This document shows positions 3,421-46,248 of a DNA stretch of 64,000 nt, piece by piece; the first letter of the stretch is position 1; each line of letters opens with the position of its first letter. Under the pieces are notes generated by a model. That model saw only the letters and a program-made list of their open reading frames with translations, was not told the DNA's origin and searched no databases. The position numbers and the translations under genes are program-made. The DNA lies in NCBI GenBank assembly GCA_963691655.1, contig CAVNUY010000016.1:124001-188000 (forward strand). The letters run 5' to 3'. The DNA comes from Toxonevra muliebris. Taxonomy: Eukaryota; Arthropoda; Insecta; Diptera; Pallopteridae.

Positions 3421-3433
3421 CTAGTCGGTAAGG
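3421..3433 (-). mobile_element. 3' tip of a Helitron-like element, cut off by an LTR insertion
   Basis: Read on the minus strand this is CCTTACCGACTAG. It ends in CTAG followed by T, which fits the CTRR|T end of Helitrons. The matching tip of the second copy, CCTTATCGACTAG, is contiguous with its hairpin at 31941-31969. Here the hairpin lies at 14607-14623, on the far side of the gypsy element, so the gypsy insertion separated tip and hairpin. Confidence 0.6.
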
Positions 3434-6205
3434 TGTAGGGGCGCTTGTAGCTCAAGCAGTTTCCGCTTACAATTTCATTTTGGTTATTTGAATGTTCACA
3501 CATAAAAACATCACTTCCGTTTGAGTCGCCATCTGTGTGCGAGAAGAAGAAACAGACCACACTACTTATTCACCATAATTTGAATTAAGTTCCTTATGTC
3601 CAAATTTTCATTAATTATTTTCTTTTCCGACAGTAGAAATACTGTTACTCTCTCTAATTTTTGATGATTCATTATACTAGACAGAGCTTACCTCGTCAAG
3701 AAAAGCAATTTTCTAATCCTTTGCGATTCCAGACGTCTTCAAGTTAACTTGTGTAGAAGTGTTAAGGCAGATAATTGCGTTTGCTTAGTACAACTAAGTA
3801 CAGTCGGTAATTTTCAATTTATTTCAACATTTAACTCAAACCTTAACATTTTCATCAGTTTTCTACGCAATATAAAATAATAAAGAGAGTAAGTAAATAA
3901 TCCGAAAATTAATAAAATTCGCACATACATTTGTATGCTTGCATTCATTTCATTTTTGCATTAAAATTTAATTATTCTACGATTTTTAGCAATCGCAATA
4001 TTTCATTGGATCAGTTATTCGTATCAACATTTTTCAAGTTGTGGATGAAAAGGCAGAGAAAGGGGTATAAAATCATTATACTGGTGCCAATTCCTACCAT
4101 GGGTAAAAATTCCACAATGTTGATCATAAATTTCGCTATTCTTCAAATTTATTTTTTTTTCTATTAGATTTGGCACCTAATACATAAGATCATAATACCT
4201 AAAATAAAACCTAATACATAAGATCATAATACCTAACATAAAACCTAATACATAAAATGATAATGCATAACATAAAACCTAATACATAAAATGATAATGC
4301 ATAACATAAAACCAAAGATAATAATACTTAAAATAAATCCAAGTAAAACAACATAAAACCTAGTACATACATAATACATAGAACCTAACATGTACCTCAA
4401 CTAAATACCTACACCTACAAAACCTCTATCATACCAACTCGGGTACACACACACAAACCATTGGTCAAGGTGTCAGAAGCGGTCAAGCAGGTTTCAGTTT
4501 CTTTCGCGCATTCAGAGATGATGTATTAAAATCCCGGGGGCCTGCTGTAAACGAGAAATTCGACATGTGGAGTGAAGTGAAGTGATAGAACCTAGTTTAG
4601 TTAGATAAATTTAGTATTAGAATAAGTATTAAAAAGTATATATAGTGAGTTAAAAATATCTACAATATTATATATGTGTTAAAAATAGACAAAACAAAGT
4701 AAAGCTAAACCCCTGAAATAAAAATACTAAGAAAAAAAAGTGCTTGAAACAATAATGATGAAAAAGAGGTAAAAACATATTACACCAAAACCCATGCATA
4801 ACAGAAAAAAACTAAAAAAATATTAAATTTAACAAAAACTATATCTAAAACCTCTGAAAAATACATAAAAACAAATTAAAATAAATATAAAAATCAAAAT
4901 CTGCATATCTAAGTGACTAAAAGCTACATGAAAATAAACTAGTATGAAACTAGTATGACACTAGTTTGCAACTAGTATGTTATCAGTGCAGTGAATTTAG
5001 TTAGTGAAAATAACATAAGCAAAAGAATAGAGAATAGAGAAAAATATGAAAACAACAACAATTGTATAATACTGCACATATAAATATGTATATTAATTTT
5101 TCGAATTACGGTTAATTCATAATTTCTACTTGTGCAAAGGCAAAGTGTTGTTAGAATCGGTATAAACATTTTTCGACCAAATATTGAATACAGTGTCGAG
5201 AAATATTTATACATATTTTGTTGGTTTTTTTTTATTTTTTTTATTAAATCATTAAAATATTTTTGCCTTAATATAATAATAATAATATTCATTAAATAAT
5301 AATTTTTAGAAAGAAAAGAAAAAAAAAAAAGTTAATAATCACTGTGATTTAAAAACAGTATTAATATAAACATACGTGCAAAAATGTTGCAAAGCATGGT
5401 TAGCAACATGTTTCCAACTAATAATTTTGGTAGATTTACAGCATTGTCAACATACACATACACCATGAAAGATCTTTCATCGTGGGAGCAACGACCTTAA
5501 AAGTTGTAAGTGTATTTTGTTAATTTTTTTTTATTTGTGTAATATTTATATTTTGTTAGTACTATTTATATTAGTATGGGACAAATTGGTTCTTTCTTGG
5601 TCATTTTTTTTCTTTTCGATAATTGAATATTTAAATTCTAATTTACCTAAGTTAAATTTTATCGCTAATTTTAATATTTAAATATAAATACCTAATATAA
5701 TTTTTCTTTGAATTTTTTTTTAAATTGAATAATTGTAATGCATTCTACAGTATATTTAAATTGGTTTTCTAATATATTAATTAAATAAAATTTATTATAA
5801 TGAAGTGCTAAAATTTTCGGTATTATGATTACGAGCAAGTTCGGTTAGGTTTTTTTTTGTGGTTATGTTTAGGGACTATCAAGTATTTCTTTTGTTGTGG
5901 ATTTTTATCTGATAGTCATGGAAGGGAGGGCAAAGTGTTGTGACAACATTCTAACACAACCAAATCGTAGATCAATTCGATGATGTGGAATCTTCTTCTC
6001 TTGTGTCCTATTGTTTTTTTTCTTGCTATTTCTTCCAACTTTAATGCACGCGAAATTATTATTTTTATTTATATGGCAACGTATAATCACCAGGCGGAAG
6101 GTGCAAGAACACCACCCCATTAGCCGACGAGCCGGAGCCGGAACTCGAAGCGTGCATTCGCTACCTACCCCTGCACAAACATTCACCAAATCGTTGCATG
6201 CTACA
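3434..6205 (+). repeat. 5' LTR of the RING-Gag gypsy element
   Basis: It runs from TGTAGGGGCG to GCATGCTACA and matches 11831-14603 almost exactly. At 2772 bp it is much longer than the few hundred bases usual for fly gypsy LTRs. It holds a four-copy 34-bp tandem array and long AT-rich tracts. Short frames inside it (for example near 5905-6246) are identical in both LTRs and do not look like genes. I could not place the U3/R/U5 borders. Confidence 0.95.
4176..4311 (+). repeat. 34-bp tandem repeat, four units, in the 5' LTR
   Basis: Four head-to-tail 34-bp units each start CCTAATACATAA. Units 1-2 share AGATCATAATACC and units 3-4 share AATGATAATGC, so the array probably grew from two types. 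A degenerate fifth unit (CCAAAGATAATAATAC) may follow. The same array lies in the 3' LTR at 12573-12708. Confidence 0.85.
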
Positions 6206-6223
6206 ATATAAATATAAAATTTT

Positions 6224-6241
6224 TGGCGCCCAACGTGGGGC
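6224..6241 (+). promoter_or_regulatory. Primer binding site, tRNA-Lys(CUU) type
   Basis: TGGCGCCCAACGTGGGGC is the complement of the 3' end of fly tRNA-Lys(CUU), including CCA, over 18 nt (tRNA sequence from memory). It begins 18 nt after the LTR end, a larger gap than usual. Confidence 0.8.
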
Positions 6242-6887
6242 CCCACGATACTAACTTATCGAAATCAATAAACTATAAACTGGGTATGGAATGAAGAAGT
6301 TCATACTTTGGAGTGGGTCCTCATTCTACCTGGCTCTTTTCTATCTATCTTTCTAATTTTTTTTCTTACCTTGTTAAGACTCGCAAGGAATTTATAATGT
6401 TGCTATTTTGCTAACATATAACCAGCTTGCTTGAAACGAAGTAACTATTTGTTTTTTTTGTCAGTGATCTTATTAGTCCTTATTTTTGCTGAATGGAAAT
6501 GCAGATTTTGTGGTATATAAAGCTACGGTCTGACCAAGGTTTAAAATAAGTGATGATGTAAAGATTTCCCTTCTGTTTCTCCGTTTATTTTCTTTCAGGA
6601 AAATAGCATTAGTTATTGGCCCTGGCTCAAACTAATGACCAAAGAAAATGTATCTATTCTTTCTCTTTTCTTTTCCGTCCATTACTCGTATTGATCTGTT
6701 ATAACGAAAATAAACATAACGAACTTTTGCTGACTTGTCTCGAAATCATAAAATAATTATCTCGATTTATATTTCTTAGCTTGTGAAAATACTTACTTAA
6801 TTTTATATAATTTTAAATTTTTTTTTCTAGTATTATTATTAACTTTGCTTTAATAGAATTTTTTTTAATTTAATTGACTTTTTTCTA
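6242..6887 (+). other. Leader between primer site and gag
   Basis: About 646 nt of AT-rich leader without a substantial ORF. Gag starts at the first ATG followed by a long open frame (6888). Any packaging signal would be here but is not recognisable. Confidence 0.6.
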
Positions 6888-8450
6888 ATGCCTGATCCTA
6901 GTACAGAAGATTTGAACTCAGAATCCAATGGTCAGCATTGTAACATTTGCACAAACTGGATTTCCGTTCGTGCTAATTTAGTCTCCATTCCATGTGGACA
7001 CTGTTTTCATAGATCCTGTATATATAAATACCTCCAATCGAAACGTAATTGTCCTACTTGTGGAATTTATTGCGATTTACAAGATATTGTTCCCAAAACA
7101 CCTGGTCCTGCTAGTACTATTGGTGCTGCAGATGCTGCAGAGACAAACACAAATACCGAATCTTCCACAACAACTGCGACTAGTGAAGTTGTTCAGGGTC
7201 CAGTAATATCACCTTCTAGATTATCTCCTTCAGAGCATAGAGCTACCCTTAGAAATTTAGTCACTGCTGCTGTAGGTGCACAGCAGGCAGAGCTTTTAAG
7301 TACGCTTAGTACACAATTATCAAATTTGATTGCGACGAATATTGAAGAAGGGTTCAAGCGTATCAGTTTACAAAATAGTCTACCTACTGCAATACCATTG
7401 CAACCAAATAATATCCCCACTATTAGCAACAATGCTCAACGCTTATTTCCGCCAAACGCGCAGGTGCATTCTTTACCAGCAGTGGAACGTCAAACAATGG
7501 AGGAACTGCTTGGTTTACCCGCAGCCGCTAATGCTAATCGTGATAGTAGTGGTGGAACATCTATTCGAACTCGAAATTTCCATTCTAATCTTGTATCTCG
7601 TCCTGATAAAGTTGGTTCCATTATGTATAATTGGAAGTTAAAATTTACTGGTACTAATGATGGTTTGTCAGTAGACAAATTCATTTATCGTGTAGAAGCA
7701 TTGACCAATCAGACTCTAGGTGGAGATTTTGATTTACTGTGTCAGTATGCAAGTGCTTTGTTTGATGCAAAGGCTAGCGATTGGTTCTGGCGTTTCCACA
7801 AATCCGTCCGCGAAATACATTGGCCTGATCTTTGCATTGCTCTGAGAAGACAGTTTAAAGATTCCAGAACTGATGTTGACATTAGAGAGTTAATACGTGA
7901 TAGAAAACAAACACCGAACGAAGGATTTGATTCGTTTTACGATTCAATTTTAGGGTTGACTGATCGGCTTGAACAACAACTATCAGAAAATTCTCTTGTG
8001 GAAATATTACGACGCAATTTATTACCGGAAATACAGCATGAGATTTTGAATCTGCAAATTCACTCAGTGTCACAGCTGAGAGATATTTGTAAGAAAAGAG
8101 AATTTTTCCTTCAGGATATTCAGCACAGACAGCAATATGCTAAAACATCAACACGTAAACATACAAATATTTCTGAATTAATTGAGAAGTTTAGTAATGA
8201 AGAAGAAAATGATATATCTGTAATTTCTGCCATTTCTTTGAAATGTTGGAATTGTGGGCTTGATGGTCACCGATACCAGGATTGTCTTAGTGAGCGTAAA
8301 GTTTTTTGCTATGGTTGTGGCATTCCTAATATTTATAAGCCTAACTGCAAAAATTGTAGTCCAAAAAACTACCAGCAGAACGCACTGAGAAGTGCACGCA
8401 AACCACTCGTAACCAATACGTTCAAACATCAATCGACCAACACCGAATAA
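6888..8450 (+). CDS. Gag with N-terminal RING-H2 finger
   Basis: This 520-residue protein starts at ATG 6888. Residues 18-58 form a complete RING-H2 pattern: C18, C21, C36, H38, H41, C44, C55 and C58, with spacing C-x2-C-x14-C-x1-H-x2-H-x2-C-x10-C-x2-C. Residues 60-240 are Ser/Thr/Ala/Asn-rich and probably unstructured. A retrotransposon capsid domain follows from about residue 248 (NWKLKFTGTNDG) to about 410. A CCHC zinc knuckle lies at 453-466 (CWNCGLDGHRYQDC), then a C-x2-C-x9-C-x2-C finger. RING-H2 domains usually act as E3 ubiquitin ligases, so this Gag may recruit a ubiquitin-conjugating enzyme; that role is inferred. The finger is in frame with no stop or splice signal between it and the capsid. 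The stop overlaps pol. Confidence 0.92.
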   Translation: MPDPSTEDLNSESNGQHCNICTNWISVRANLVSIPCGHCFHRSCIYKYLQSKRNCPTCGIYCDLQDIVPKTPGPASTIGAADAAETNTNTESSTTTATSEVVQGPVISPSRLSPSEHRATLRNLVTAAVGAQQAELLSTLSTQLSNLIATNIEEGFKRISLQNSLPTAIPLQPNNIPTISNNAQRLFPPNAQVHSLPAVERQTMEELLGLPAAANANRDSSGGTSIRTRNFHSNLVSRPDKVGSIMYNWKLKFTGTNDGLSVDKFIYRVEALTNQTLGGDFDLLCQYASALFDAKASDWFWRFHKSVREIHWPDLCIALRRQFKDSRTDVDIRELIRDRKQTPNEGFDSFYDSILGLTDRLEQQLSENSLVEILRRNLLPEIQHEILNLQIHSVSQLRDICKKREFFLQDIQHRQQYAKTSTRKHTNISELIEKFSNEEENDISVISAISLKCWNCGLDGHRYQDCLSERKVFCYGCGIPNIYKPNCKNCSPKNYQQNALRSARKPLVTNTFKHQSTNTE

Positions 8451-11400
8451 CGATTGATACCAACCAAAATAATTCTAATATAGTTTTAAATAATATTAAT
8501 AACAAATTACTAGTTTTAGGTCCTCATAAACCTTTCCATGTCCGACTGGCCGAATATAACAAAGTTCGACAGCGTATTTTTGGAAATTTTCCTACACCTC
8601 CTACAACACCTAGTCGCTCTAGTTTACGCATTCGTTCCTTTTGGGAAAAAGTGCGCACTAATCGCAAAAAGTTTTTGTCTTCCATTTTTGATAAACATAC
8701 AGATATTCGTCCTTACGCTGAAGTGCACTTATTTGGTAAAACAATAAGGGGCCTTTTAGATACGGGTGCATCTATTAGTTGCATAGGAGCGCAGTCAGCT
8801 TCCGAATTTTTGTCGTCCAATATACCGTACAAGAAAATAAAGTATTTCATACATACTGCAGATGGTAAACCACAAAATATCGTTGGTATAATTGAAACTC
8901 AAATAACTTTTCGTAATGTTACAAAACCCATCACAATTTTTATAATACCTAGCTTATCGCAAAATCTCTATTTAGGAATTGATTTTTGGAATTTATTTCA
9001 TCTTTTACCTTCATGCTTTGTTAGTGAAGTTAATGTATCTAATATTTCGAATTCGACTATACACTCTTTAACTGATGTCCAACAAAAACAACTTCAAAAT
9101 GTCATAAACTTATATCCATCTTTCTCCAAAGAAGGACTCGGAAAAACAAATCTCATTTCACATGTTATTGATGTTAAAGATACAAAACCTATCAAACAAA
9201 GACATTTTCCTGTTTCTCCGGCGATTGAAAAATTAATTTATGATGAATTAGACAGAATGTTGAAGTTAGGAGTGATAGAAGAATCCGATAGCGCGTGGTC
9301 TTCACCAATTGTTTTAGTACGCAAACCAGGTAAAGTGCGGTTGTGTTTAGATAGCCGTAAAGTAAATACAGTAACACTAAAAGATGCATATCCATTGCCA
9401 ATCATAGACGGAATTTTGAGCAGGCTTCCAAGAGCTGAATTCATTTCGACCATTGATTTTAAAGACGCTTTTTGGCAAATACCTCTCGACGTAGGATCAC
9501 GTGATAAAACCGCGTTTACTGTCCCTGGTAGATCACTGTATCACTTCAAAGTAATGCCTTTTGGTTTATGCAATGCGCCACAAACAATGTCTCGTCTCAT
9601 GGATAAAGTCATTCCCGCACATCTCAGATCATATGTGTTTATATATCTGGATGATCTTTTAATTGTATCCGAAAATTTTGATAGGCATTGTGAAGTGCTG
9701 CGCGAAGTTGCTCATCATATTCGTTGTTCTGGTCTGACAATTAATGTAGAAAAAAGTAAGTTTTGTCTAAGGGAAGTACAGTACTTAGGTCACATTGTGG
9801 GTAATGGTACAATCCGTACAGATCCCGAAAAAGTATCTGCTATCACAGAATTTCCGAATCCAAGATCTGTAAAGCAGCTAAGACGATTTTTAGGTATGTC
9901 AGGATGGTATAGAAAGTTCATTCGGAACTATGCTTCAATAACTTCGCCATTAACAGATTTGTTAAAAACTAATAGAAAGTACGCTTGGAACGAAGAAGCA
10001 CAGAAAGCATTTGAAGACTTAAAAACCATCTTGAGCTCTGCACCGGTTTTGCATAGCCCAAATTTTTCACGGCCGTTTTACATACACTGTGATGCAAGCA
10101 AAACTGGAATAGGAAGTGTATTGGTACAAGTAAATGAGGAGGGTGAAGAGTTTCCCATAGCATTTATGTCCAAGAAACTCAACCAAGCCCAACGCAATTA
10201 CTCAGTGACCGAACAAGAATGTTTGGCAGCAATGCTTAGCATTAAAAAGTTTCGCGCTTATGTTGAAGGACACGAGTTCACCGTGATTACGGACCATGCG
10301 TCTTTAAAGTGGCTCATGTCTCAAACAGATTTAAGCTCACGCTTAGCTCGATGGGCTTTGAAGCTGCAAGGCTTTTGTTTCAAAATTGAGCACAGAAGGG
10401 GTAGTCAGAACATAGTTCCCGATGCGCTTTCTAGGGTAAATACTGAAGATCTGTCCGCTATAACTATTGATGAAGGAATTTCCGTAGATTTAAATTCAAC
10501 TCATTTTCATTCTGATGAATACAAAAGACTTATCGAAAACGTAAGGGCAAACGAAGCCAAATTTCCAGACTTAAAAGTTGTTGACGGTTATTTGTACAGA
10601 CGGACTGAACACGCAACTGGAGAGCAATTGCATGATGATCTCGTGTGGAAACTATGGATTCCCAAAGCTATGATACCTAGTATTTTAGAAAAGGCTCATG
10701 ACAGTCATTTGTCATCACATGGTGGCATAAATAAAACACTTTATCGAATTCGGCGGTTTTGCTTTTGGCCAAACTTAGTGTCCGATGTCAAAAACTATGT
10801 AAATTCTTGCGAAATTTGCAAAACCACAAAACATCCTAATTTTACTTTGCGTCCACCTATGGGTAAAACTTCGGAAACGAAAAGATCTTTCCAAAAATTA
10901 TATGTTGATTTCTTAGGTCCTTATCCACGTTCACGTTCTGGCAATATAGGCATTTTTATAACTCTTGATCATTTTACAAAATATCCATTTTTAAGACCCG
11001 TGAAGAAATTTACCGCTGATATAGTCACAAAATATTTGGAAGAAGATTTGTTTCATTGTTTTGGCGTACCAGAAACCATTGTATCTGATAATGGCTCGCA
11101 ATTCAAATCCGGCCAATTTAATAACCTTCTTCTCAAATATGGCATTAATCATACATACACTGCTGTGCATTCTCCGCAGGCGAACGCATCTGAACGTGTA
11201 AATCGCTCAATCATTTCCGCAATTAAGGCATACATTAAGCCAGATCAGAAAAACTGGGATGAGTATCTCAGTAGCATTTGTTGTGCTTTACGATCAGCTG
11301 TCCATTCCTCTATAGGTACTTCGCCTTACTTTATGACTTTTGGTCAACATATGGTAACTAACGGTGCAACCTATGCATTATTGCGCAAACTAGAAATGCT

Positions 11401-11722
11401 CGAGGATAGATCTGTGAATTTTACTAGGGATGATACTTTTGAAATCATACGTACTAAAGCAGGAAACGTAATGAAAAAGCAGCAAGAACGCAATGAGCGT
11501 GCGTACAATCTCCGATCACGTATTGTATCCTATGAGGTGGGTCAAGAAGTTTTCAGACGTAATTTTCAACAAAGCAACATTGAAAAAGGTTTCAACGCAA
11601 AGCTTGCTCCTTGTTTTATTAAAGCACGAGTAAGGAAGAGGTTAGGTAATTGTTACTACGAGCTTGAGGATTTACAGGGTCATCTTATTGGTATATATCA
11701 CGCCAAAGATATAAGGCAGTAA
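8360..11722 (+). CDS. Pol polyprotein (protease, RT, RNase H, integrase)
   Basis: The frame is open for 1120 codons from 8360. There is no ATG before the protease, so it is probably made as a Gag-Pol frameshift fusion. Counting from 8360, the protease motif DTGAS starts at residue 134. The RT motif YLDD is at 429-432, and RNase H has CDASKTGIG near 577. The integrase zinc finger begins at H780 (HDSHLSSHGG, later CEICK). The integrase triad is D850 (VDFLG), D910 (SDNGSQF) and E945 (ASERVNR), giving the expected D,D35E spacing. The C-terminal region (residues 1070-1120) matches the usual fly gypsy integrase tail, ending in YHAKDIRQ. All catalytic residues are present and no stop interrupts the frame. 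The family is Ty3/gypsy (Metaviridae); the exact clade is unassigned. Confidence 0.95.
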   Translation, partial: SKKLPAERTEKCTQTTRNQYVQTSIDQHRITIDTNQNNSNIVLNNINNKLLVLGPHKPFHVRLAEYNKVRQRIFGNFPTPPTTPSRSSLRIRSFWEKVRTNRKKFLSSIFDKHTDIRPYAEVHLFGKTIRGLLDTGASISCIGAQSASEFLSSNIPYKKIKYFIHTADGKPQNIVGIIETQITFRNVTKPITIFIIPSLSQNLYLGIDFWNLFHLLPSCFVSEVNVSNISNSTIHSLTDVQQKQLQNVINLYPSFSKEGLGKTNLISHVIDVKDTKPIKQRHFPVSPAIEKLIYDELDRMLKLGVIEESDSAWSSPIVLVRKPGKVRLCLDSRKVNTVTLKDAYPLPIIDGILSRLPRAEFISTIDFKDAFWQIPLDVGSRDKTAFTVPGRSLYHFKVMPFGLCNAPQTMSRLMDKVIPAHLRSYVFIYLDDLLIVSENFDRHCEVLREVAHHIRCSGLTINVEKSKFCLREVQYLGHIVGNGTIRTDPEKVSAITEFPNPRSVKQLRRFLGMSGWYRKFIRNYASITSPLTDLLKTNRKYAWNEEAQKAFEDLKTILSSAPVLHSPNFSRPFYIHCDASKTGIGSVLVQVNEEGEEFPIAFMSKKLNQAQRNYSVTEQECLAAMLSIKKFRAYVEGHEFTVITDHASLKWLMSQTDLSSRLARWALKLQGFCFKIEHRRGSQNIVPDALSRVNTEDLSAITIDEGISVDLNSTHFHSDEYKRLIENVRANEAKFPDLKVVDGYLYRRTEHATGEQLHDDLVWKLWIPKAMIPSILEKAHDSHLSSHGGINKTLYRIRRFCFWPNLVSDVKNYVNSCEICKTTKHPNFTLRPPMGKTSETKRSFQKLYVDFLGPYPRSRSGNIGIFITLDHFTKYPFLRPVKKFTADIVTKYLEEDLFHCFGVPETIVSDNGSQFKSGQFNNLLLKYGINHTYTAVHSPQANASERVNRSIISAIKAYIKPDQKNWDEYLSSICCALRSAVHSSIGTSPYFMTFGQHMVTNGATYALLRKLEMLEDRSVNFTRDDTFEIIRTKAGNVMKKQQERNERAYNLRSRIVSYEVGQEVFRRNFQQSNIEKGFNAKLAPCFIKARVRKRLGNCYYELEDLQGHLIGIYHAKDIRQ
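8363..8369 (+). promoter_or_regulatory. -1 ribosomal frameshift heptamer A AAA AAC
   Basis: In the gag frame the codons read cca-aaa-aac, giving A|AAA|AAC, a canonical X XXY YYZ slippery site. The pol frame opens at 8360, just after a TAG at 8357-8359, and is -1 relative to gag. A 5-bp hairpin with a GAGA loop (GCACT 8382-8386, AGTGC 8391-8395) follows after a 12-nt spacer, rather longer than the usual 5-9 nt. Confidence 0.8.
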
Positions 11723-11830
11723 ACATTTTTATATTTAATTTAACCCTTTGATTTTTTTTTGCTTCTCGCTTCAAGCGGTATCAGTTTTTGGAGATTTCAT
11801 CCCCAAAATCTGATTTTGGCGGGGGAGTTA
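11723..11830 (+). promoter_or_regulatory. 3' untranslated stretch and polypurine tract
   Basis: The 108 nt between pol and the 3' LTR contain no ORF, so env is absent. The purine run GGCGGGGGAG at 11818-11827, three bases before the LTR, is the probable plus-strand primer. Confidence 0.75.
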
Positions 11831-14603
11831 TGTAGGGGCGCTTGTAGCTCAAGCAGTTTCCGCTTACAATTTCATTTTGGTTATTTGAATGTTCACACAT
11901 AAAAACATCACTTCCGTTTGAGTCGCCATCTGTGTGCGAGAAGAAGAAACAGACCACACTACTTATTCACCATAATTTGAATTAAGTTCCTTATGTCCAA
12001 ATTTTCATTAATTATTTTCTTTTCCGACAGTAGATATACTGTTACTCTCTCTAATTTTTGATGATTCATTATACTAGACAGAGCTTACCTCGTCAAGAAA
12101 AGCAATTTTCTAATCCTTTGCGATTCCAGACGTCTTCAAGTTAACTTGTGTAGAAGTGTTAAGGCAGATAATTGCGTTTGCTTAGTACAACTAAGTACAG
12201 TCGGTAATTTTCAATTTATTTCAACATTTAACTCAAACCTTAACATTTTCATCAGTTTTCTACGCAATATAAAATAATAAAGAGAGTAAGTAAATAATCC
12301 GAAAATTAATAAAATTCGCACATACATTTGTATGCTTGCATTCATTTCATTTTTGCATTAAAATTTAATTATTCTACGATTTTTAGCAATCGCAATATTT
12401 CATTGGATCAGTTATTCGTATCAACATTTTTCAAGTTGTGGATGAAAAGGCAGAGAAAGGGGTATAAAATCATTATACTGGTGCCAATTCCTACCATGGG
12501 TAAAAATTCCACAATGTTGATCATAAATTTCGCTATTCTTCAAATTTATTTTTTTTTCTATTAGATTTGGCACCTAATACATAAGATCATAATACCTAAA
12601 ATAAAACCTAATACATAAGATCATAATACCTAACATAAAACCTAATACATAAAATGATAATGCATAACATAAAACCTAATACATAAAATGATAATGCATA
12701 ACATAAAACCAAAGATAATAATACTTAAAATAAATCCAAGTAAAACAACATAAAACCTAGTACATACATAATACATAGAACCTAACATGTACCTCAACTA
12801 AATACCTACACCTACAAAACCTCTATCATACCAACTCGGGTACACACACACAAACCATTGGTCAAGGTGTCAGAAGCGGTCAAGCAGGTTTCAGTTTCTT
12901 TCGCGCATTCAGAGATGATGTATTAAAATCCCGGGGGCCTGCTGTAAACGAGAAATTCGACATGTGGAGTGAAGTGAAGTGATAGAACCTAGTTTAGTTA
13001 GATAAATTTAGTATTAGAATAAGTATTAAAAAGTATATATAGTGAGTTAAAAATATCTACAATATTATATATGTGTTAAAAATAGACAAAACAAAGTAAA
13101 GCTAAACCCCTGAAATAAAAATACTAAGAAAAAAAAGTGCTTGAAACAATAATGATGAAAAAGAGGTAAAAACATATTACACCAAAACCCATGCATAACA
13201 GAAAAAAACTAAAAAAATATTAAATTTAACAAAAACTATATCTAAAACCTCTGAAAAATACATAAAAACAAATTAAAATAAATATAAAAATCAAAATCTG
13301 CATATCTAAGTGACTAAAAGCTACATGAAAATAAACTAGTATGAAACTAGTATGACACTAGTTTGCAACTAGTATGTTATCAGTGCAGTGAATTTAGTTA
13401 GTGAAAATAACATAAGCAAAAGAATAGAGAATAGAGAAAAATATGAAAACAACAACAATTGTATAATACTGCACATATAAATATGTATATTAATTTTTCG
13501 AATTACGGTTAATTCATAATTTCTACTTGTGCAAAGGCAAAGTGTTGTTAGAATCGGTATAAACATTTTTCGACCAAATATTGAATACAGTGTCGAGAAA
13601 TATTTATACATATTTTGTTGGTTTTTTTTTATTTTTTTTATTAAATCATTAAAATATTTTTGCCTTAATATAATAATAATAATATTCATTAAATAATAAT
13701 TTTTAGAAAGAAAAGAAAAAAAAAAAAAGTTAATAATCACTGTGATTTAAAAACAGTATTAATATAAACATACGTGCAAAAATGTTGCAAAGCATGGTTA
13801 GCAACATGTTTCCAACTAATAATTTTGGTAGATTTACAGCATTGTCAACATACACATACACCATGAAAGATCTTTCATCGTGGGAGCAACGACCTTAAAA
13901 GTTGTAAGTGTATTTTGTTAATTTTTTTTTATTTGTGTAATATTTATATTTTGTTAGTACTATTTATATTAGTATGGAACAAATTGGTTCTTTCTTGGTC
14001 ATTTTTTTTCTTTTCGATAATTGAATATTTAAATTCTAATTTACCTAAGTTAAATTTTATCGCTAATTTTAATATTTAAATATAAATACCTAATATAATT
14101 TTTCTTTGAATTTTTTTTTAAATTGAATAATTGTAATGCATTCTACAGTATATTTAAATTGGTTTTCTAATATATTAATTAAATAAAATTTATTATAATG
14201 AAGTGCTAAAATTTTCGGTATTATGATTACGAGCAAGTTCGGTTAGGTTTTTTTTTGTGGTTATGTTTAGGGACTATCAAGTATTTCTTTTGTTGTGGAT
14301 TTTTATCTGATAGTCATGGAAGGGAGGGCAAAGTGTTGTGACAACATTCTAACACAACCAAATCGTAGATCAATTCGATGATGTGGAATCTTCTTCTCTT
14401 GTGTCCTATTGTTTTTTTTCTTGCTATTTCTTCCAACTTTAATGCACGCGAAATTATTATTTTTATTTATATGGCAACGTATAATCACCAGGCGGAAGGT
14501 GCAAGAACACCACCCCATTAGCCGACGAGCCGGAGCCGGAACTCGAAGCGTGCATTCGCTACCTACCCCTGCACAAACATTCACCAAATCGTTGCATGCT
14601 ACA
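11831..14603 (+). repeat. 3' LTR of the RING-Gag gypsy element
   Basis: The 2773-bp copy of 3434-6205, one A longer in the poly-A run near 13727. It contains the same four-unit 34-bp array at 12573-12708. Its end, CTACA, is followed by the target duplicate AAGG. Confidence 0.95.
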
Positions 14604-27650: not shown

Positions 27651-29676
27651 TTATTTTGCTTTACGAATTCTGTTTTTATGAATTGTTTTTTCTTTCTTTG
27701 TTACTTTGTCATAAACGACTACATTACAACCATCGACGCTTTTGACGATGTAAGGACCTTCGTAAATACTTTTGTGTTTATCATATACTGGCACTTTATT
27801 TATGCTACCATCTTTTTTCGGTATGCTAACTACCATTTGTTTTTCTTTAATTTGCTTAGACATTCCGCGGGTTGTCACAGCAAGGATTTATCTATTTGCG
27901 TTTTTCAATTCGTCAATTGAAATTCGCGAGAGTGCATCTGCGGCCACATTATGTGTGCCTTTTATGTATTCTATTGTGAAGTTATACTCTGATAGTTCTA
28001 ACCTGATTCTAGTTAATTTTGAAGAGGGGTCTTTTATGTTAAATAAGTATACTAGAGGTCTATGATCGGACCTGACGGTAAATTGAGTACCATAAACATG
28101 TGGTCTAAATTGTGTAATTGCAAAATGAATAGCTAGAAGCTCCTGTTCAATAGTAGGTTTCTTTTGTTCGGCGTTATTGAAAGATTTTGATGCAAAATAA
28201 ATCGGTAAATCATTTCCATTAAAATTCTGACTTAAAATAGCGCCACATCCAACTTTTGATGCGTCTACTGTTATCAAAAACTTCTTGGTAAAATCCGGGT
28301 ATTGCAAAAGCTGAGGAGATATTAAATATACTTTCAACTCTTCGAAAGCGTTCTGGCATTTGTTATTCCAATCAAAATTAACTTTTTTCCGAGTGATGTA
28401 TGTAATTCAACGGTGCTGCTAATGAAGCAAAGTTTGGAATAAATCTTCTATAATAATTAGCTAAGGCCACAAATCTCTTAACTGCATCTTTATTATTTGG
28501 AATTGGATATTTTTGAATTGTTTTTATTTTTGAATGGTCTGGAAGGAGACCTTTTGAAGTGCACTTGTGACCAAGAAAAATCACTTCAGACCTAAAAAAG
28601 TTACATTTATACGGATTGATTTTTAAATGGAATTTTCTGAAGGTTTCGAAAACACTTTTTAAATTCTTTTAATGATGTTGTTTACTACATCCTATAACAA
28701 TTATGTCATCGACATACAAAAATGCTTGATGTGGCGCAAGACCTGAAAATGCAATTGACATCATGCGCGAAAAAGAATTTGGAGCGATATTTAAATCAAA
28801 CGGTAAGACTTTCCATCGAAATGAACCACTATCTGTACTAAAAGATGTAATATCTCTTGAATCTACGTGAAGAGGTATTTGGTGAAAACCGGAAAATAAG
28901 TCGAGAACTGAAAAATATTTAGCTCGACCAAGGTTGTCTAAAATGTCATCGATACGCGGGAGGGAAAATTTATCTGCTATCAACTTTTTATTTACCGCTC
29001 TATAATCAAAACACATTCTATAAGCCATTTGCCCGTCAATGCTCTTTTTTGGTACTAAAATTAAAGGACTATTGCAATTTGACTGACTAGGCTCTATTAA
29101 ATCATTTTCCAACAATTTTTTGACTTGTGTATTAATTTCCATTTTCTGTGAATGTGGCAGGCGATAGTTTTTGATGTATACCGGTGAAGCATCGTTTACT
29201 CTCAGCTTTTGCTCGTAGAAATTATTTACTGTCATTTTATCATCTTTTAAAGCAAAAATATCAGCGAACGTTTCGCATAAATGCATTAAATTATCTTTTA
29301 CCTCGTTTGGCATATGATTCTCTAATAACTTTTTTAGTTTTTCGATGCGTTTATATTCTGAGTTAACTTCATCAATTGAGTAAACATTGTACTTTTCAAG
29401 ACTTTCCGACCTAATATTAAAATTTTGGATACATTTAAATTCTTCTGTTGTGTTTACTACACGCATAACTGGTGTACTTGAATTGACAATGCATTTACCA
29501 ATAAATACTCCATTGCAAACCTCTTGAGAGTCTATAAAAATTGGTTCCGTACCTTTTTTTAATTTAAAAATTCTAAACACCTCACATCTTGGTGGAATTA
29601 TACAATTTTCGTTACTTGTACCATTTAAGATAGGAATTTTCAACTTATTATTGTAATACCAAAGCGAAATTGCCAT
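27651..29676 (-). pseudogene. Decayed gypsy pol lacking the integrase
   Basis: Minus-strand fragments follow in order. 29676-28669 holds the pre-RT linker and RT, with LPRIDDILDNLG, FSGFHQIPLHV and the active-site motif YVDD. 28584-28378 is the RT thumb (FLGHKCTSKGLLPDHSKI). 28337-27888 is RNase H (TVDASKVGCGAILSQ, SDHRPLVYLF, ADALSR). 27878-27651 is the pol C-terminus (VYDKHKSIYEGPYIV). Frameshifts separate the parts and a TAG interrupts the run just after DELKNANR. The whole integrase core is gone: the linker TTRGMSKQIKEKQ passes directly into the C-terminal tail, which implies an internal deletion. It is a Ty3/gypsy element of the mdg3/micropia-like kind by linker style (tentative). It cannot be autonomous. 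Confidence 0.85.
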
Positions 29677-34401: not shown

Positions 34402-37400
34402 TTAAATATTAGAATGATAAGGTTTTAGATCTTTTAAGTGTGCAGTACACTTGGATTTTCTTTCACTGGGGTGCTTAACTTTCACGATGACGGGCGAAAT
34501 GAAACTGACGACTTCGAAAGGGCCGTCAAATTTTTCTGCGAGCTTAGAAGCAAAATAATCGCTGGCTTTGGAAATATGATGTTGGCGGACAAGTACCAAA
34601 TCGCCGATTTTCGGCTTCCAATATCGGTGTCGAAGATTGTAATGTTTTGCCTGTTGGGCTGCAGCTGTAGATAGGTTATGCCGTACAAGTGCGAATATTT
34701 GCTGTAACTGATCAGCTTTCTCCTCCGGGTCTTGTACAGTTTGCGTTGATTGAGTGCCAATCTTTTCCATGTAGAGCAATTTTGGTAATCGTAACTCTCT
34801 GCCTTGAGTCAAAAACGCTGGTGAATATCCGGTAGATTCCTGTCGACTGGAGTTTAGTGCGAGTGTCAATTCGGGTATGTATTTATCCCATTTCCGTTGG
34901 TTTCCATGACTAAATTGAGCCAGCATAGTTTTGATTGTGCGATTTGAAAGTTCTGTAGGATTCTCATGAGGGGAGTACGGAGCAGTGAGTTGGTGCTGGA
35001 TTCCCATATCGTGGAGGAATTTCTTGAATTCACGGCTTATATATTGCGAACCATTGTCGGTAATAAGTCGTATCGGTATTCCAAATCGTGCAAGTATGCG
35101 CTCTCTGAATGCTTTGATTAATGTTTTGGTAGTGGCTTGTCGTACTGCAATAAACTCTGTCCACTTGGAGAATTTATCATGGAAGACGACCAGCATATTG
35201 TTGCCATGAGAAGTGCGAGGCAACGGGCCAACGAAATCTGAGCAAACCGTGGACCAAGGTTCTGTGTCCACCGTTGTATGCATTTTCCCAGCGGGGCTCT
35301 GCTGTAATGATTTAAATTTTTGACATGTGGTGCAACTTCGTACATACCTTGCTACATCTCGAAAGAGTCCAGGTCAATAGTATAGTTTGCAGATTCTGGA
35401 TATAGTTTTGTTGATTCCTAGATGACCGGCAGTAGCGCTGTCGTGACTCTCCTGTAGAACCTTCATGCGGTCGTTTTTCCGGACGCACAATTTCCATGGT
35501 ACCGGATCATCCTCATTGTAAGCTGTAGAATCGTAAATATGTCTTAAAAGGTTACCTTGTTCATCCACCTGATAATCGGGCAAGGCTTCCGGGTTGTTCT
35601 TCACTGTATCGACTTTCTGCGTGTACCAGCCGTCGACGGTTGCGACCTGCAAGCCACTGAGATGTTCCACTGTATCGTTTTCTTCCACTGGCGATCGTGA
35701 TAGTGTGTCAGCTATCACATTTAGTTTGCCACGTCTGTATTTTATTTCGTAACTGAATTGCATTAATTCGAGGGCCCATCGGGCAATTCTCCCAGATGGA
35801 GTCTCAATTGAATTTAACCATTTTAGAGATTGGTGATCCGTTATAATCGAAAAGTGGTACCCCTCCAGATAATGTTTCAACTTTCGTACCGCCCACACAA
35901 TTGCAAGGCATTCCTTCTCCGTGACGGTATAGTTCCTCTCAGCCGCATTGAGTGTACGACTGGCATATGCAATAATTCGTTCGCCATCATCGAGATTTTG
36001 GAGTAGAACGGCGCCTAGGCCAACATCACTAGCATCAGCCTGTAAAATAAAAGGACGATTAAAATCCGGACAGGCTAAGATTGGTGCTGTCGTTAATTTT
36101 TGTTTGACACTTTCAAAAGCTTGTTGTTGGGCCTCAGTCCAGTTCCATTTTTTTGATTTTTTTAATAAGCTTGTAAGAGGACTTACCAAAGTGGAATAGT
36201 CAGGTATAAACCTTCGATACCACGATGCTGTGCTGATAAATGATCTCAATTTCGATATGTTTGTGGGCGGTGGTATTAATGAAATTGCTTTCACCTTCTG
36301 AGGGTAGGTGTGCACTCCATGTTGACTTACCAAATGTCCCAAATAGCGAATTTCAGGTTGCACGAAATGACATTTATCTGGGTTGATTTTAAGTTTGGCC
36401 TCAATTAGTCGGTCGAAGACTCGTTTTAGATTTTGTAGATGTTCTTCGAGGGTATTGCCGATGACGACTATGTCATCTAGATAAGCGAACGCAAACGGTT
36501 CCATCGTCGGCCCTAATACGGTATCCAGTGCTCGTTGAAATGTGGCAGGGGCCGAGTGTAGTCCGAAAGGCATCACTTTCCACTGATATAGACCGCGTCC
36601 AGGTACAGTGAATGCCGTAAAAATTCTGCTTTTAGAAGCCATAGGTATTTGCCAATAGCCCTGTTTTAAATCGATTGAACTGAAATATTTACCATTACGC
36701 AGCTTGTTTAGGATGGCATTAATCTGCGGCAAGGGGTACGCATCACGTACGAAATGCTCATTAACCTGTCGAAAATCGATGCACAGTCTCCATTCGTCAT
36801 TTTTCTTCTTGACGAGAACTACTGGGGAGCTGTACGGACTGTTTGAGGGTTCTATATAACCATTTTTGATCAATTTATCGATTTCACTATCGATAATGCT
36901 TTGCATCGCCGGATTTCGCGGAATATATCGCTGTTTCAATGGTCTATCGTGTTTCATTGTAATTATATGTTCGGTAATGTTTGACGTACCTTCAATGTTT
37001 TCGAATCTCTGAATTTGCCCTGAAATGAAGTTATTAATGCGATGCTCTTCTTCTGTGGGCAGCGAGTGCAGCTTGCCATCAGTTGCACCAGCTGTAGGGA
37101 TAATTGATAATTCCGCCTGAGGGGCACGTTGGGGTGAAAATGTGATATTGCAGTTCATACGACGAAGGAAGTCCATTCCCAATGTAATAGTATCGCTAGA
37201 TGATTCGATGACTAAAAATTCTTGTTGTGTCACCACTCCAGCAATGGTTAACCAACAGTTAATAGAACCTAAAACAGGCACCTTGGAGACATCCGCCAAT
37301 TCTAAGTATTTAATAGAGCGGGGAAGGATTCGCATCTGGAATAGTTGAGGTATTTTAAAGTTAATTATACAACGAGAAGCACCTGTATCAACCAAAGCAT

Positions 37401-37554
37401 GAAATGATTTCCCGCGTATAGTAATGTCCGCGAAAAGTCGGGATCCCTTTTCGTGGACTGCATTTTTAATTTGGAAGGCTGAGAGTTTTAGAGGTTCGGT
37501 GTGCCTTCTCCTTTCGGACCTCTGGTACCGTTTCCCGACCGTTGACGACAACAC
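34402..37554 (-). pseudogene. Pol of the second gypsy element, one stop codon in integrase
   Basis: The minus frame is open from at least 37554, in -1 relative to gag, to a TGA just before 35374, then open again to 34402. Counting from 37554, the protease motif DTGAS is at residues 56-60, the RT motif YLDD at about 358, and RNase H (QADASDVGLGAVLL) at about 504. The integrase zinc-binding region (AGHLGINKTISRI) is interrupted by TGA in place of a conserved Trp codon. After it the integrase continues normally (RSCTTCQ; SDFVGPL; TDNGSQY; NPTELSNR) to a chromodomain-less C-terminus ending LKDLKPYHSNI. All other catalytic motifs are present. Without readthrough of the TGA, the product would lack the integrase core. 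The element resembles the mdg1/412 group in sequence style (tentative). Confidence 0.9.
37474..37536 (-). promoter_or_regulatory. -1 frameshift signal: G GGA AAC with possible pseudoknot
   Basis: In the gag frame the minus strand reads tcg-gga-aac, giving G|GGA|AAC (37536-37530), a canonical slippery heptamer. After a 6-nt spacer AGAGGT (37523-37518) can pair with ACCTCT (37495-37490). Within that loop GAAGGC (37508-37503) can pair with downstream GCCTTC (37479-37474), forming an H-type pseudoknot. Pol is in the -1 frame and open across the site. Confidence 0.75.
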
Positions 37555-38479
37555 TCAATGGTTTTTATTCCATGCTTACCACAGTCAAAACAAAATATTA
37601 CTTGCGGATTTCTACAATCCGTGCGGGCGTGACCTCTTTGTCCACACCTGTAGCATATCATGGGCTGTACTGGTCGAATAGTAATAGGCTGCGTAGTACT
37701 TTCCTCCAGACGAATTCTTTCGAAATCTCGCGCCATTACTAGAAGTTCTCGAAGCGTAGAAAAATCAGTGCGTTTGACATACAGTTTGTACTCGGGCCTG
37801 CAGTTCTCATAAATTCGATTCAATTGTTGGAAGGGTGACATCGGAGAAAGCCATCTCATCATAGATTGTAGGTCAGTCAAATAATCGCAAAACTGTTCGC
37901 CAACATTTTGCTTTCTCTGTCGCATTTTGTCTTCAAGATCTTCGAAATATCGTGGAGGTAAAAAAAAAATAGCTTAAAGTCCTCTTTGAAATCGTTGTAG
38001 TTGTTCCAGTTCATCTTGTTGTTACAAAACCAAGACAGCGCAGTATCTTTCAACAGTTCTGGCAACGAATGTAAAATATGATCCAGAGTGAAGTTGTAAG
38101 CAGTGGAAAGCTCCTTGATTCGTTCCATGAATCCTAAAGGATCTTTACCACCATCAAACCGTACTCCCCATTTACGGACTTGGTCACAAACGCCAGCTAG
38201 ATCAGGTACAGCTGTGACAAACGCCGCTGGTGATGCGGATCTCGATTTGGACCCAAAGGTTGGCACTTTTAATACATCCGCTCCAGACGCAACTGGTTCA
38301 TATCGCGCACTTAATTTTTGCAAATATTCGTTTTGTTCCTTTTTTAAGTCGTCACGACGGAAGAAATACCGTAGCCGACTACGAAGTTCATCGACGTTGG
38401 CTATAGGATCTTCACCAAGATCCATGAAAACCTGCTCCAGGTCAGACTTGCTCAACAGACTAATAAAGGCTTTCCCCAT
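37488..38479 (-). pseudogene. Gag of the second gypsy element, one homopolymer frameshift
   Basis: The ATG at 38479 (MGKAFISLLSKSDLEQ) opens a minus-strand gag frame. The capsid region includes KWGVRFDGGKDPLGFMERI and LLKDTALSWFCNN. The frame shifts at a 10-base A/T run near 37960-37970 and continues in another frame (QRKQNVGEQFCDYLTDLQ) to the end at 37488. The nucleocapsid has CYRCGQRGHARTDC, a CCHC knuckle, followed by a second C-x2-C finger (CFDCGKHG). One base in a homopolymer is the only defect seen, and it could be a sequencing or assembly error. The stop lies after the frameshift signal that leads into pol. Confidence 0.85.
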
Positions 38480-38714
38480 TGTATGAATGACCAAATTATT
38501 TAATTTTAAGTTTTATATACATATATTTCTCTTTATTTTAATTTTTTTTATCTTAATTTTTCCACTGTCTGAAGTTTTTTTTTTTTTTTTCTCCAACTGT
38601 TTTTTTTCTAAAATCTGTATTTAATTTTTTATTTTTTGGAAGTCTTTATACAATTTTTATTTAAATTTTTCATAAGTCCTTATTAAATTTTATTTTTTTA
38701 TTTTAAATTTTCAA

Positions 38715-40345: not shown

Positions 40346-42066
40346 CTAGGGTCTCTCAATCTCGAACTTCTTTGTTTCACTTATGAACCTTAGAAGCTCA
40401 GGAAGAGGGGGAGTATGGACATTATTCATACTCAAGATATCACTACCTAACAACCTTAATCTGATTCTCGCGAACGCTGGACAGCTACAAAGATAATGCT
40501 CCGTAGTACCGTCGTCCTCAAGACACGATTGGCAAATTGGATCGATGATGACGCCCATGTTAGTCATATGCTGACCACATGTGTTGTGCCCTGTGACGAC
40601 ACCCACCAGTAATCTCAGTTCCTTTCTTCTCAGTTTGAGAAGAAATTCCCCTGATTTCCTGTTAGTTTGTCTCACGAAGCACCTTACGGTTCTGCAGGAG
40701 TCAAGCTCGGACCATCTTTCTCTATGGATAGAACCCACGAAATCGTTGATCCAATACATGATCTCCCCAGAACTTACGCCAAGAAAAGGTGTGGGACCCC
40801 AGTGTCCTGGAACCCATATAAGGCATAACTTGTTGTGTTTTGCAACACTATTAAGTTTTGCCTTACACTCGCTGACCGATTTTGAGGTGCTGGCAGCGTT
40901 AGCAAGGCACTTCCCATGCCACCTCTTCTCAATTATCCAGCTCACAACGTCTAGGATAGCGAAAACCTCCGTTAGGAAGACTGACGCCATCTGTCCAGTG
41001 GAAAAAGAGTACTTGGTCTTATCGTCCAAGTACTAACCGGATCCAGTACCTTTTGAGGTTTTGGGTTCGTCGGTATAGAAGACGTCTTCGTCATGTCCCG
41101 GAGTACGACCTCTCGACTTAATCATTGATAACGTTTCGGGAACCTGACTTCATATCTTCTTCCGAAGCGGATGCAAGACACATAATTGTCCTCGGGCATC
41201 AAGAACAGTGGGCACTGTACTGACAACTGGTGGTATATCATACTGTGCCCTAAATCCTCCTCGACATGACAGACTCCATTTAACCGGAGTCTGTAGGCCG
41301 CTCTCATCGCTTCTTTACGGATTTGAAGATCCAGAGGAAGCAAGGCATCAGCAGATGTAGTACACATTATACCAATGATATCCAGGCACACACTTCTCTG
41401 AAGCCTTGTCAGAGAGGATACTGTGGACTTAACCAAAGTTCGTATCCACCATACTACAGAGGCATACGTGACAATAGGTCTCACAAGAGCAATGTGTACC
41501 CAGTATACCAGAGCTGGATTCAGACCCCAAGTCTTGTCAAAAGCTAGCCTGCACTGCCAGAAAACCTTTAGTGCACGCGAGACCTTCAGCTCGTCATGCG
41601 TCTTCCATAACAGTTTGCAATCTAAGGTTAACCCTAAATATTTAACTTCAGAAGACAACTGCTGTGTTACTCCCTTCATTTTTGGTAGTAAGAGGCCATC
41701 CTTCTCGTGTTTACTGGTGAAGAGCATTAAGGTGCTTTTACCGGGATTCACTGAAAGACCCTGCAGATCGCACCAAACCTCGATCTTGTCCAAGACTTCT
41801 TGCATTTTAATGCACATCGTCTGTAAGGACCGTCCCGAGATTAGTACGCACACATCGTCAGCATACGCTTGGATGTGAACTCCAAAATTTTTCAAATCAT
41901 TAAGGAAGGAGTCCACCACGAAGCACCATAGAAGAGGAGAGAGTACGCCTCCCTTGGGCGCATCCTTTCTCAACCTCGACCATAACACTGTCACCATTTT
42001 CTCCCCCCGTGATAAGCAGCCGTCAACTAGAGTGGTAAAACAAAATTTTTGCAAAAAAAAAATCAC
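40346..42066 (-). pseudogene. 5'-truncated non-LTR retrotransposon: RT and RNase H
   Basis: The minus strand encodes the second half of RT from about 42020 (GGVLSPLLWCFVVDSF, active site AYADDVCVLISG, EVKYLGLTLDCKLLW). The RT C-terminus follows (TRLQRSVCLDIIG). RNase H begins near 41100 (FYTDEPKTS), is broken by a stop at 41037, and resumes with LIWVPGHWG. The protein ends in a CCHC-like cluster, CQSCLEDDGTTEHYLCSC. The order RT then RNase H fits the I/LOA/R1-like clades. RT motifs upstream of GGVLSP and the endonuclease are missing, so the copy is 5'-truncated near 42060. It is a different family from the fragment at 26371-27130. It is not functional. Confidence 0.85.
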
Positions 42067-45861: not shown

Positions 45862-46248
45862 TGTTGAGTTATTAATCTTTTTTAATAACTATTAAAATTT
45901 TAGCAAAATGATGACAAAATTAACTATGAAAGAAAACGACTAAATGTAGCGATACAAGTTTATACGCTTTATTTGAAGAGTCTTTTCTTCACGAAAATTC
46001 AATAATGATTAACAATTCATTTTGGATGAAAGTACAGTTTAGCTTACAAAAAAATCGAACAGCTAATCGAACTAGCAATATATGTTTATATATAAAAAAT
46101 AAGAGAGAGAGCTTTTAAAAGAAGTCCCGCTTGCACAACTATGCTAGCTAATGCAGTTATTAAAATTAGTAGAAAGAGATAATATAATGTGTTAGGGATG
46201 ACAAAACTAAATGCGACAATTATAGTTCAGGAACTATTGCTCCCGACA
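45862..46248 (-). repeat. 3' LTR of the BEL element
   Basis: 387 bp. The minus strand starts TGTCGGGAGCAATAG and ends AATAACTCAACA. The first 22 bases encode the last codons and stop of the polyprotein. GGGTGGAGGA just before it is the likely purine tract. Confidence 0.95.

Follow-up and report, generated by a model that had tools for sequence, protein, structure and literature searches.

The window analyzed here, a 64,000-nucleotide stretch of contig CAVNUY010000016.1 from the fly Toxonevra muliebris, contains an intact gypsy-type LTR retrotransposon at positions 3434-14603 (Table 1). Its two LTRs, which had been described as nearly identical from the sequence alone, indeed differ by only 2 mismatches over 2772 aligned bases in addition to one gap column. 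A target-site duplication of AAGG flanks both LTRs, with its 5′ copy at 3430-3433. The putative primer binding site is presumably of the tRNA-Lys type, and a purine run lies ahead of the 3′ LTR. Both gag and pol are uninterrupted; the Pfam domains of pol are arranged in the order RVP/Asp_protease_2, RVT_1, RT_RNaseH, Integrase_H2C2 and rve, and the window's ORF list contains no env-sized ORF downstream of pol. The direct LTRs with a short target-site duplication, the order of the pol domains and a Ty3-type capsid altogether identify the element as a member of the Ty3/gypsy group. Each LTR also contains a small block of tandemly repeated ~34-bp units, at about 4141-4377 and 12538-12774, respectively.

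Table 1. Features of the LTR retrotransposon, in positions of the window.
Feature	Position	Strand	Description
5′ LTR	3434..6205	+	2772 bp, TGTA...TACA ends
Putative primer binding site	6224..6241	+	TGG start, 18 nt past the LTR
gag ORF	6888..8450	+	520 aa: RING, linker, long helix, linker, capsid, zinc motifs
RING-H2 finger	6939..7061	+	Gag residues 18-58, spanning the eight zinc ligands
Predicted long helix	7227..7367	+	Gag residues 114-160 in the AlphaFold2 model; possible oligomerization segment
Capsid-like region	7578..8144	+	Gag residues 231-419
Nucleocapsid zinc motifs	8244..8357	+	Conserved columns
pol frame	8360..11722	+	Protease, RT, RNase H, integrase; first ATG/GTG/TTG at 8651
Slippery heptamer A_AAA_AAC	8363..8369	+	Gag phase; candidate -1 frameshift site
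3′ LTR	11831..14603	+	2773 bp, TGTA...TACA ends, AAGG directly after

Several other features are found in the window. An uninterrupted BEL/Pao polyprotein of 1763 residues (46227-51518, minus strand) carries DUF1759, Peptidase_A17, DUF5641 and an integrase zinc-binding domain, and no Pfam match to a RING was obtained in it at E 0.001. A second gypsy-type element (34402-38494, minus strand) is broken into several ORFs, and inspection by eye of those that are Gag-like revealed no RING-like start. Fragments of further reverse-transcriptase elements are located at 27888-29676, 40346-42066 and 52661-54958 (minus strand), where three of the tested ORFs gave RVT_1 matches and the others, as judged by eye, resemble RT, RNase H or endonuclease sequences. 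The segment 18897-19721 on the plus strand is a likely host exon with an ABC_membrane_2 match (7.5e-24), which we take to resemble a peroxisomal ABCD transporter.

The gag and pol frames of the intact element overlap by 91 nt (8360-8450), with pol in the -1 frame. The RNA segment 8370-8470, immediately following the slippery heptamer, has a folding energy of -15.6 kcal/mol compared to a shuffled mean of -6.97 (z -3.69), and none of 200 shuffles was as stable. The Lys-Asn pair encoded at the heptamer is also present in 88 of the 132 aligned rows that have a letter there. Because of the overlap, the in-phase heptamer and the stable downstream RNA, a retrovirus-style -1 frameshift is likely to operate at the gag/pol junction.

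Gag adopts a modular architecture, of which the first 58 residues (6888-7061) extend to the last zinc ligand of the RING-H2 finger. The eight ligands Cys18, Cys21, Cys36, His38, His41, Cys44, Cys55 and Cys58 follow the C3H2C3 pattern with RING spacing, exactly as assigned in the sequence-only reading. Pfam zf-RING_2 (PF13639) matches residues 17-58 with an E-value of 1.8e-9 and 38.2 bits for the whole Gag, and with 3.5e-11 and 43.6 bits for the first 71 residues, both exceeding the curated cut-off of 27.3 bits. The closest solved sequence relatives are RINGs of E3 ligases, including AMFR/gp78 (1.1e-8) and RNF126, RNF24 and RNF165 (1.3e-7). The AlphaFold2 model has a RING at residues 21-60, with pLDDT values of 93-97 in 10-residue blocks, and a fold search with a RING-only model, built from a 68-residue alignment, returned mostly RING and the related U-box structures. 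The profile matches and the predicted models together show a RING fold at the N-terminus of Gag.

Downstream of the finger, the same frame encodes a Ty3-type capsid (PF19259, residues 245-403, 1.7e-8), the structure matches of which are dArc capsid structures. The same reading had placed the finger in frame with a capsid and zinc knuckles, which holds for the capsid and for the first zinc motif, a CCHC formed by Cys453, Cys456, His461 and Cys466, but not for the second motif, which has the pattern CX2CX9CX2C (Cys474, Cys477, Cys487 and Cys490) and is not a classical CCHC knuckle. The long helix between RING and capsid was considered as a candidate coiled coil, but this is not supported, as its heptads are weak, with I/L/M/V/F at no more than 5 of 14 core positions.

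The protein search with Gag listed 104 matches, the candidates being those that share most words with the RING-bearing query. At the protein level, all eight ligands are kept in 78 of the 105 aligned rows (the listed matches plus the window), although the shares of rows with and without RING do not represent natural frequencies because the candidates were picked by word overlap with a query that has the finger. His38 is the only ligand replaced in two otherwise complete fingers (P0086 and P0093), two sequences start inside the finger (P0004 and P0099), and the other 23 rows start downstream or are not judgeable. Three rows near the window, P0014, P0021 and P0042, are apparently RING-less and were excluded from the loss counts, since truncated ORFs or gene models are indistinguishable from real loss without the DNA. 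The eight ligands are invariant in an alignment of 57 rows with 29-52% identity to the window, partly by choice because these rows (the window and 56 of the 104 matches) were hand-picked as RING-bearing. Taking the listed matches of both protein searches together, the finger is present in 82 of 147 rows.

Over the 78 rows, the non-ligand RING positions are nearly as variable as the linkers, with a mean entropy of 2.60 bits compared to 2.97 (residues 66-115) and 2.62 bits in the linkers and 1.12 bits in the capsid. The RING distances of 81 rows correlate with the capsid distances (Mantel r 0.618, with none of 999 permutations as high), and 72 of these rows share one of five nearest neighbors between the two sets of distances. 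As the divergence of the RING follows that of the capsid, the finger is probably old and appears to have been inherited with Gag rather than repeatedly captured. The element belongs to a widespread lineage, which contradicts the possibility raised in the sequence-only reading that the finger was a chance capture confined to this copy, with decay elsewhere. The 82 fingers among 147 listed rows, their co-inheritance with the capsid and the scarcity of single substituted ligands, namely His38 in only two rows, leave such a capture scarcely credible. Altogether, we are nearly certain that the element is a recently inserted, intact fly Ty3/gypsy retrotransposon of the Osvaldo / Isis-like kind, in which the RING is an old, vertically inherited module of Gag.

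The hosts that are named, for a minority of the matches, are flies of the genera Lucilia, Musca, Drosophila and Scaptodrosophila, in addition to Glossina for P0103, a row dropped before tree building. One RING-bearing Gag followed by the start of a protease frame (P0076) is labeled Puccinia striiformis and lies on a contig of 3014 bp; this label may reflect insect contamination. Scans of viral contigs and genome contigs with the Gag alignment found no relatives at the DNA level, and a scan of viral contigs with the RT-RNase H piece likewise found no relative.

A second search, using ten aligned RING-bearing Gags of which nine are distant, yielded 48 proteins, 42 of them new. Four of the new proteins, P0105, P0106, P0107 and P0142, possess the RING; P0142 is LOC119606371 of Lucilia sericata, an annotated Gag with all the canonical E3 residues in its RING. 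Another 31 Gags that were judged by eye from their start peptides to be complete at the start lack the RING, and most of them begin with M-P-x-x-R-S-x-E-N-L. Relatives with a RING begin with a comparable peptide, after which the finger follows; the RING thus appears to be a module placed between a leader and the linker.

Trees were built from the capsid and zinc motifs, leaving out P0102-P0104 for weak or partial similarity and P0093 and P0096 for capsid coverage under the limit. In the tree of 142 rows, all 31 RING-less Gags fall into one clade of 44 rows (SH-aLRT 99), which also contains five RING-bearing rows, and a tree of 51 rows hand-picked from these 142 gives a corresponding clade of 22 rows with a support of 100/98. 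Thus Gags without the finger do exist, in a separate neighboring clade, and other deep branches carry RING-bearing rows as well. Both trees are unrooted and require a minimum of two changes between RING and a complete start without it. Forcing the RING-less rows of the 51-row tree into one clade (14 versus 32 rows) is not rejected (p-AU 0.119), so that a single event might still underlie the RING-less state. Loss is a simpler reading than gain for these rows, albeit not proven by unrooted trees.

In canonical RINGs, an Ile, Leu or Val ahead of the second Cys makes the first contact with the E2, and a Trp of the helix also has a role on the E2 side. Four E2-side positions were scored in the 82 RINGs, with Ile/Leu/Val, Trp, Pro and Arg/Lys as the canonical residues. 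The window copy has Ile20, Tyr48, Pro56 and, at the linchpin position, Gly59. The complete set is found in none of the 74 members of the window's group, a group that comprises all remaining RING rows and includes P0096, placed by no tree. It is present in five of six rows of the neighboring clade A, a count that includes P0091, whose placement is unsupported in the 142-row tree and outside the clade in the 51-row tree (five of five without it), and in one of the pair P0097/P0101. The sequences with a complete I/V-W-P-R set are P0094, P0105, P0106, P0107, P0142 and P0101. Position by position, the window's group retains Pro in 73 of 74 rows and Ile/Leu/Val at the first contact in 44, leaving 30 without it, whereas Trp is found in a single row and an Arg/Lys linchpin in nine; Asn occupies the linchpin position in 31 of the 74.

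With the canonical set confined to relatives, ubiquitin ligase activity is plausible for proteins such as P0142 and P0106 and doubtful for the window copy, judging from their residues. The suggestion of the sequence-only reading that the Gag might direct ubiquitination thus holds as a plausible one for the canonical relatives, but is weakened for the very copy on which it was made, where Tyr48 and Gly59 replace canonical residues in a group that has no fully canonical member. According to the available passages of PMC7667886, the Arg linchpin is missing from at least half of the RINGs of human and yeast, and Rbx1 has Asn as its functional linchpin, while Ala and Glu stimulate less in the assays of that study. 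Since RINGs can do without Arg at this position, and Rbx1 functions with Asn, some activity of the window copy would still be conceivable. On the same passages, the identity of the linchpin is a poor predictor of activity.

A Gag that brings its own RING, with the zinc fold kept across very diverged relatives, offers a defined handle on the contact between an insect retrotransposon and the host ubiquitin system. In such settings, ubiquitin ligases are usually host restriction factors that act on Gag, such as those of the TRIM5 type. Our slight preference is for a mechanism in which the RING of this lineage serves as a docking module clustered by the capsid, with weak or E2-restricted activation. 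Capsid assembly of Gag would bring many RINGs together on one particle, and each of them, folded around zinc, would touch a host ubiquitin-conjugating enzyme or another host protein. Ubiquitin transfer would be weak, take place only with particular E2s, or be absent, and the outcome could be an effect on turnover or host defence. Owing to the weak heptads of the long helix, a coiled coil is not supported as the means of clustering, which would depend on the capsid lattice alone. The frequent Asn linchpin in the window's group, in addition to the Ile20 and Pro56 kept in the window copy, counts against this docking mechanism. Ile20 and Pro56 would rather fit an active E3 ligase, in which an E2~ubiquitin is brought in by assembled Gag and the targets are Gag itself, trafficking adaptors, or host factors of restriction or the piRNA pathway, with altered particle turnover or release as the consequence. 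The RING-H2 fold, the E3 RINGs among its nearest solved sequence relatives, the strong retention of the zinc ligands and the six relatives with a complete set also speak for such an activity. However, Gly59 provides no side chain for a linchpin, Tyr48 stands in place of Trp, and the full canonical set is missing throughout the group of 74, of which 30 lack the hydrophobic first contact; moreover, neither a substrate nor an assay was found in the accessible parts of the open-access literature. We consider an active ligase possible, with less than even credence.

An improbable alternative is a purely structural RING, a zinc-stabilized, matrix-like N-terminal cap that would help Gag to fold, to oligomerize or to bind RNA or membranes, independently of ubiquitin. 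It would fit the conservation of the ligands and of the hydrophobic core residue Phe40 (72 of 78 rows) amid the drift of most other positions, and the fact that the neighboring clade with its 31 Gags complete at the start manages without a RING. However, Pro56 is kept in 77 of the 78 rows and Ile/Leu/Val at position 20 in 49 (the alignment count, which differs by one row from the pattern scoring), probably beyond the need of a bare scaffold. Beyond the docking mechanism itself, we tentatively propose, as a history less likely than its opposite, that Gag gained a host-type RING E3 that stayed canonical in one branch, turned into a fold-preserving pseudo-RING in that of the window, which dominates the listed matches, and was discarded in a third; we infer the direction of the E2-side changes among the groups. 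If true, the three branches would form a natural series from which to learn the task of a ubiquitin ligase carried on Gag and the reason for its becoming dispensable. The canonical, eroded and RING-less relatives make the ligase question testable with natural sequences.

The RING-in-Gag architecture itself is not new, which limits the surprise. The accessible text of Negre and Simpson (2013; PMC3630058) describes an “Isis-like” element of Calliphora vicina, of the Osvaldo lineage, with a RING in Gag, and states a RING finger for Osvaldo of Drosophila buzzatii as well; the arrangement, for which no described gypsy family had come to mind when it was first noticed, can therefore not be regarded as novel. 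The present element resembles the Isis-like element of C. vicina in its long LTRs (2772/2773 bp, compared to 2577/2574 bp), a 4-bp target-site duplication, two ORFs and no env, a Gag of 520 residues (531 in C. vicina) with RING and CCHC, a pol with RT and IN, and near-identical LTRs that point to recent insertion. They differ in Pol, which has 1137 residues in C. vicina, whereas 1120 codons are open here from 8360 and the protein from the first ATG/GTG/TTG would have 1023. Membership in the Osvaldo lineage, or among Isis-like elements, is an anatomical match, as the likeness to Osvaldo is one of description, and among the best 120 of 5108 pol relatives no element name points to Osvaldo, Isis or Ulysses. 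Unlike the present element, Isis of D. buzzatii has no RING, LTRs of 742 bp and an env domain, despite being a close relative of the C. vicina Isis-like element with identities of 40% in Gag and 60% in pol (PMC3630058). The same paper also marks a RING in its legend on a C. vicina Pao element, in contrast to the BEL/Pao polyprotein of the window.

In other sources, as far as their accessible main text goes, RING does not appear as a word in the BEL/Pao review PMC3118150 or in the gag-pol survey PMC2577118. The available passages of PMC12910113 use RING as a domain abbreviation in the legend of a D. virilis TE figure and do not specify the element, and those of PMC12992720 use “ring” for ring canals only. 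Within the searched open-access PMC literature, we recognized no experimental study of what a RING does in the Gag of a retrotransposon.

Counterparts are also found among dipteran Gags, which combine a RING and a capsid-type Gag in one protein and share 41-50% identity over the aligned part. They include CVS40_9622 and CVS40_1659 of Lucilia cuprina, in addition to proteins of Musca autumnalis, Drosophila gunungcola, D. yakuba and D. pseudoobscura, and in public data bear no annotation beyond hypothetical, uncharacterized or RING-type domain-containing protein. The capsid fold is shared with dArc1 and dArc2, two domesticated host genes, the matched structures of which have no RING. As for the finger, the accessible text of PMC11992055 describes how divergence of the E2~Ub or dimer interface turned some TRIM RINGs into pseudoligases, a parallel that speaks for the docking mechanism. 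Although TRIM6 and TRIM22 are host proteins with a B-box and a coiled coil, and common descent is not claimed, they resemble the RING of the window's Gag in keeping the fold, in a diverged E2~Ub interface and in a linchpin other than Arg.
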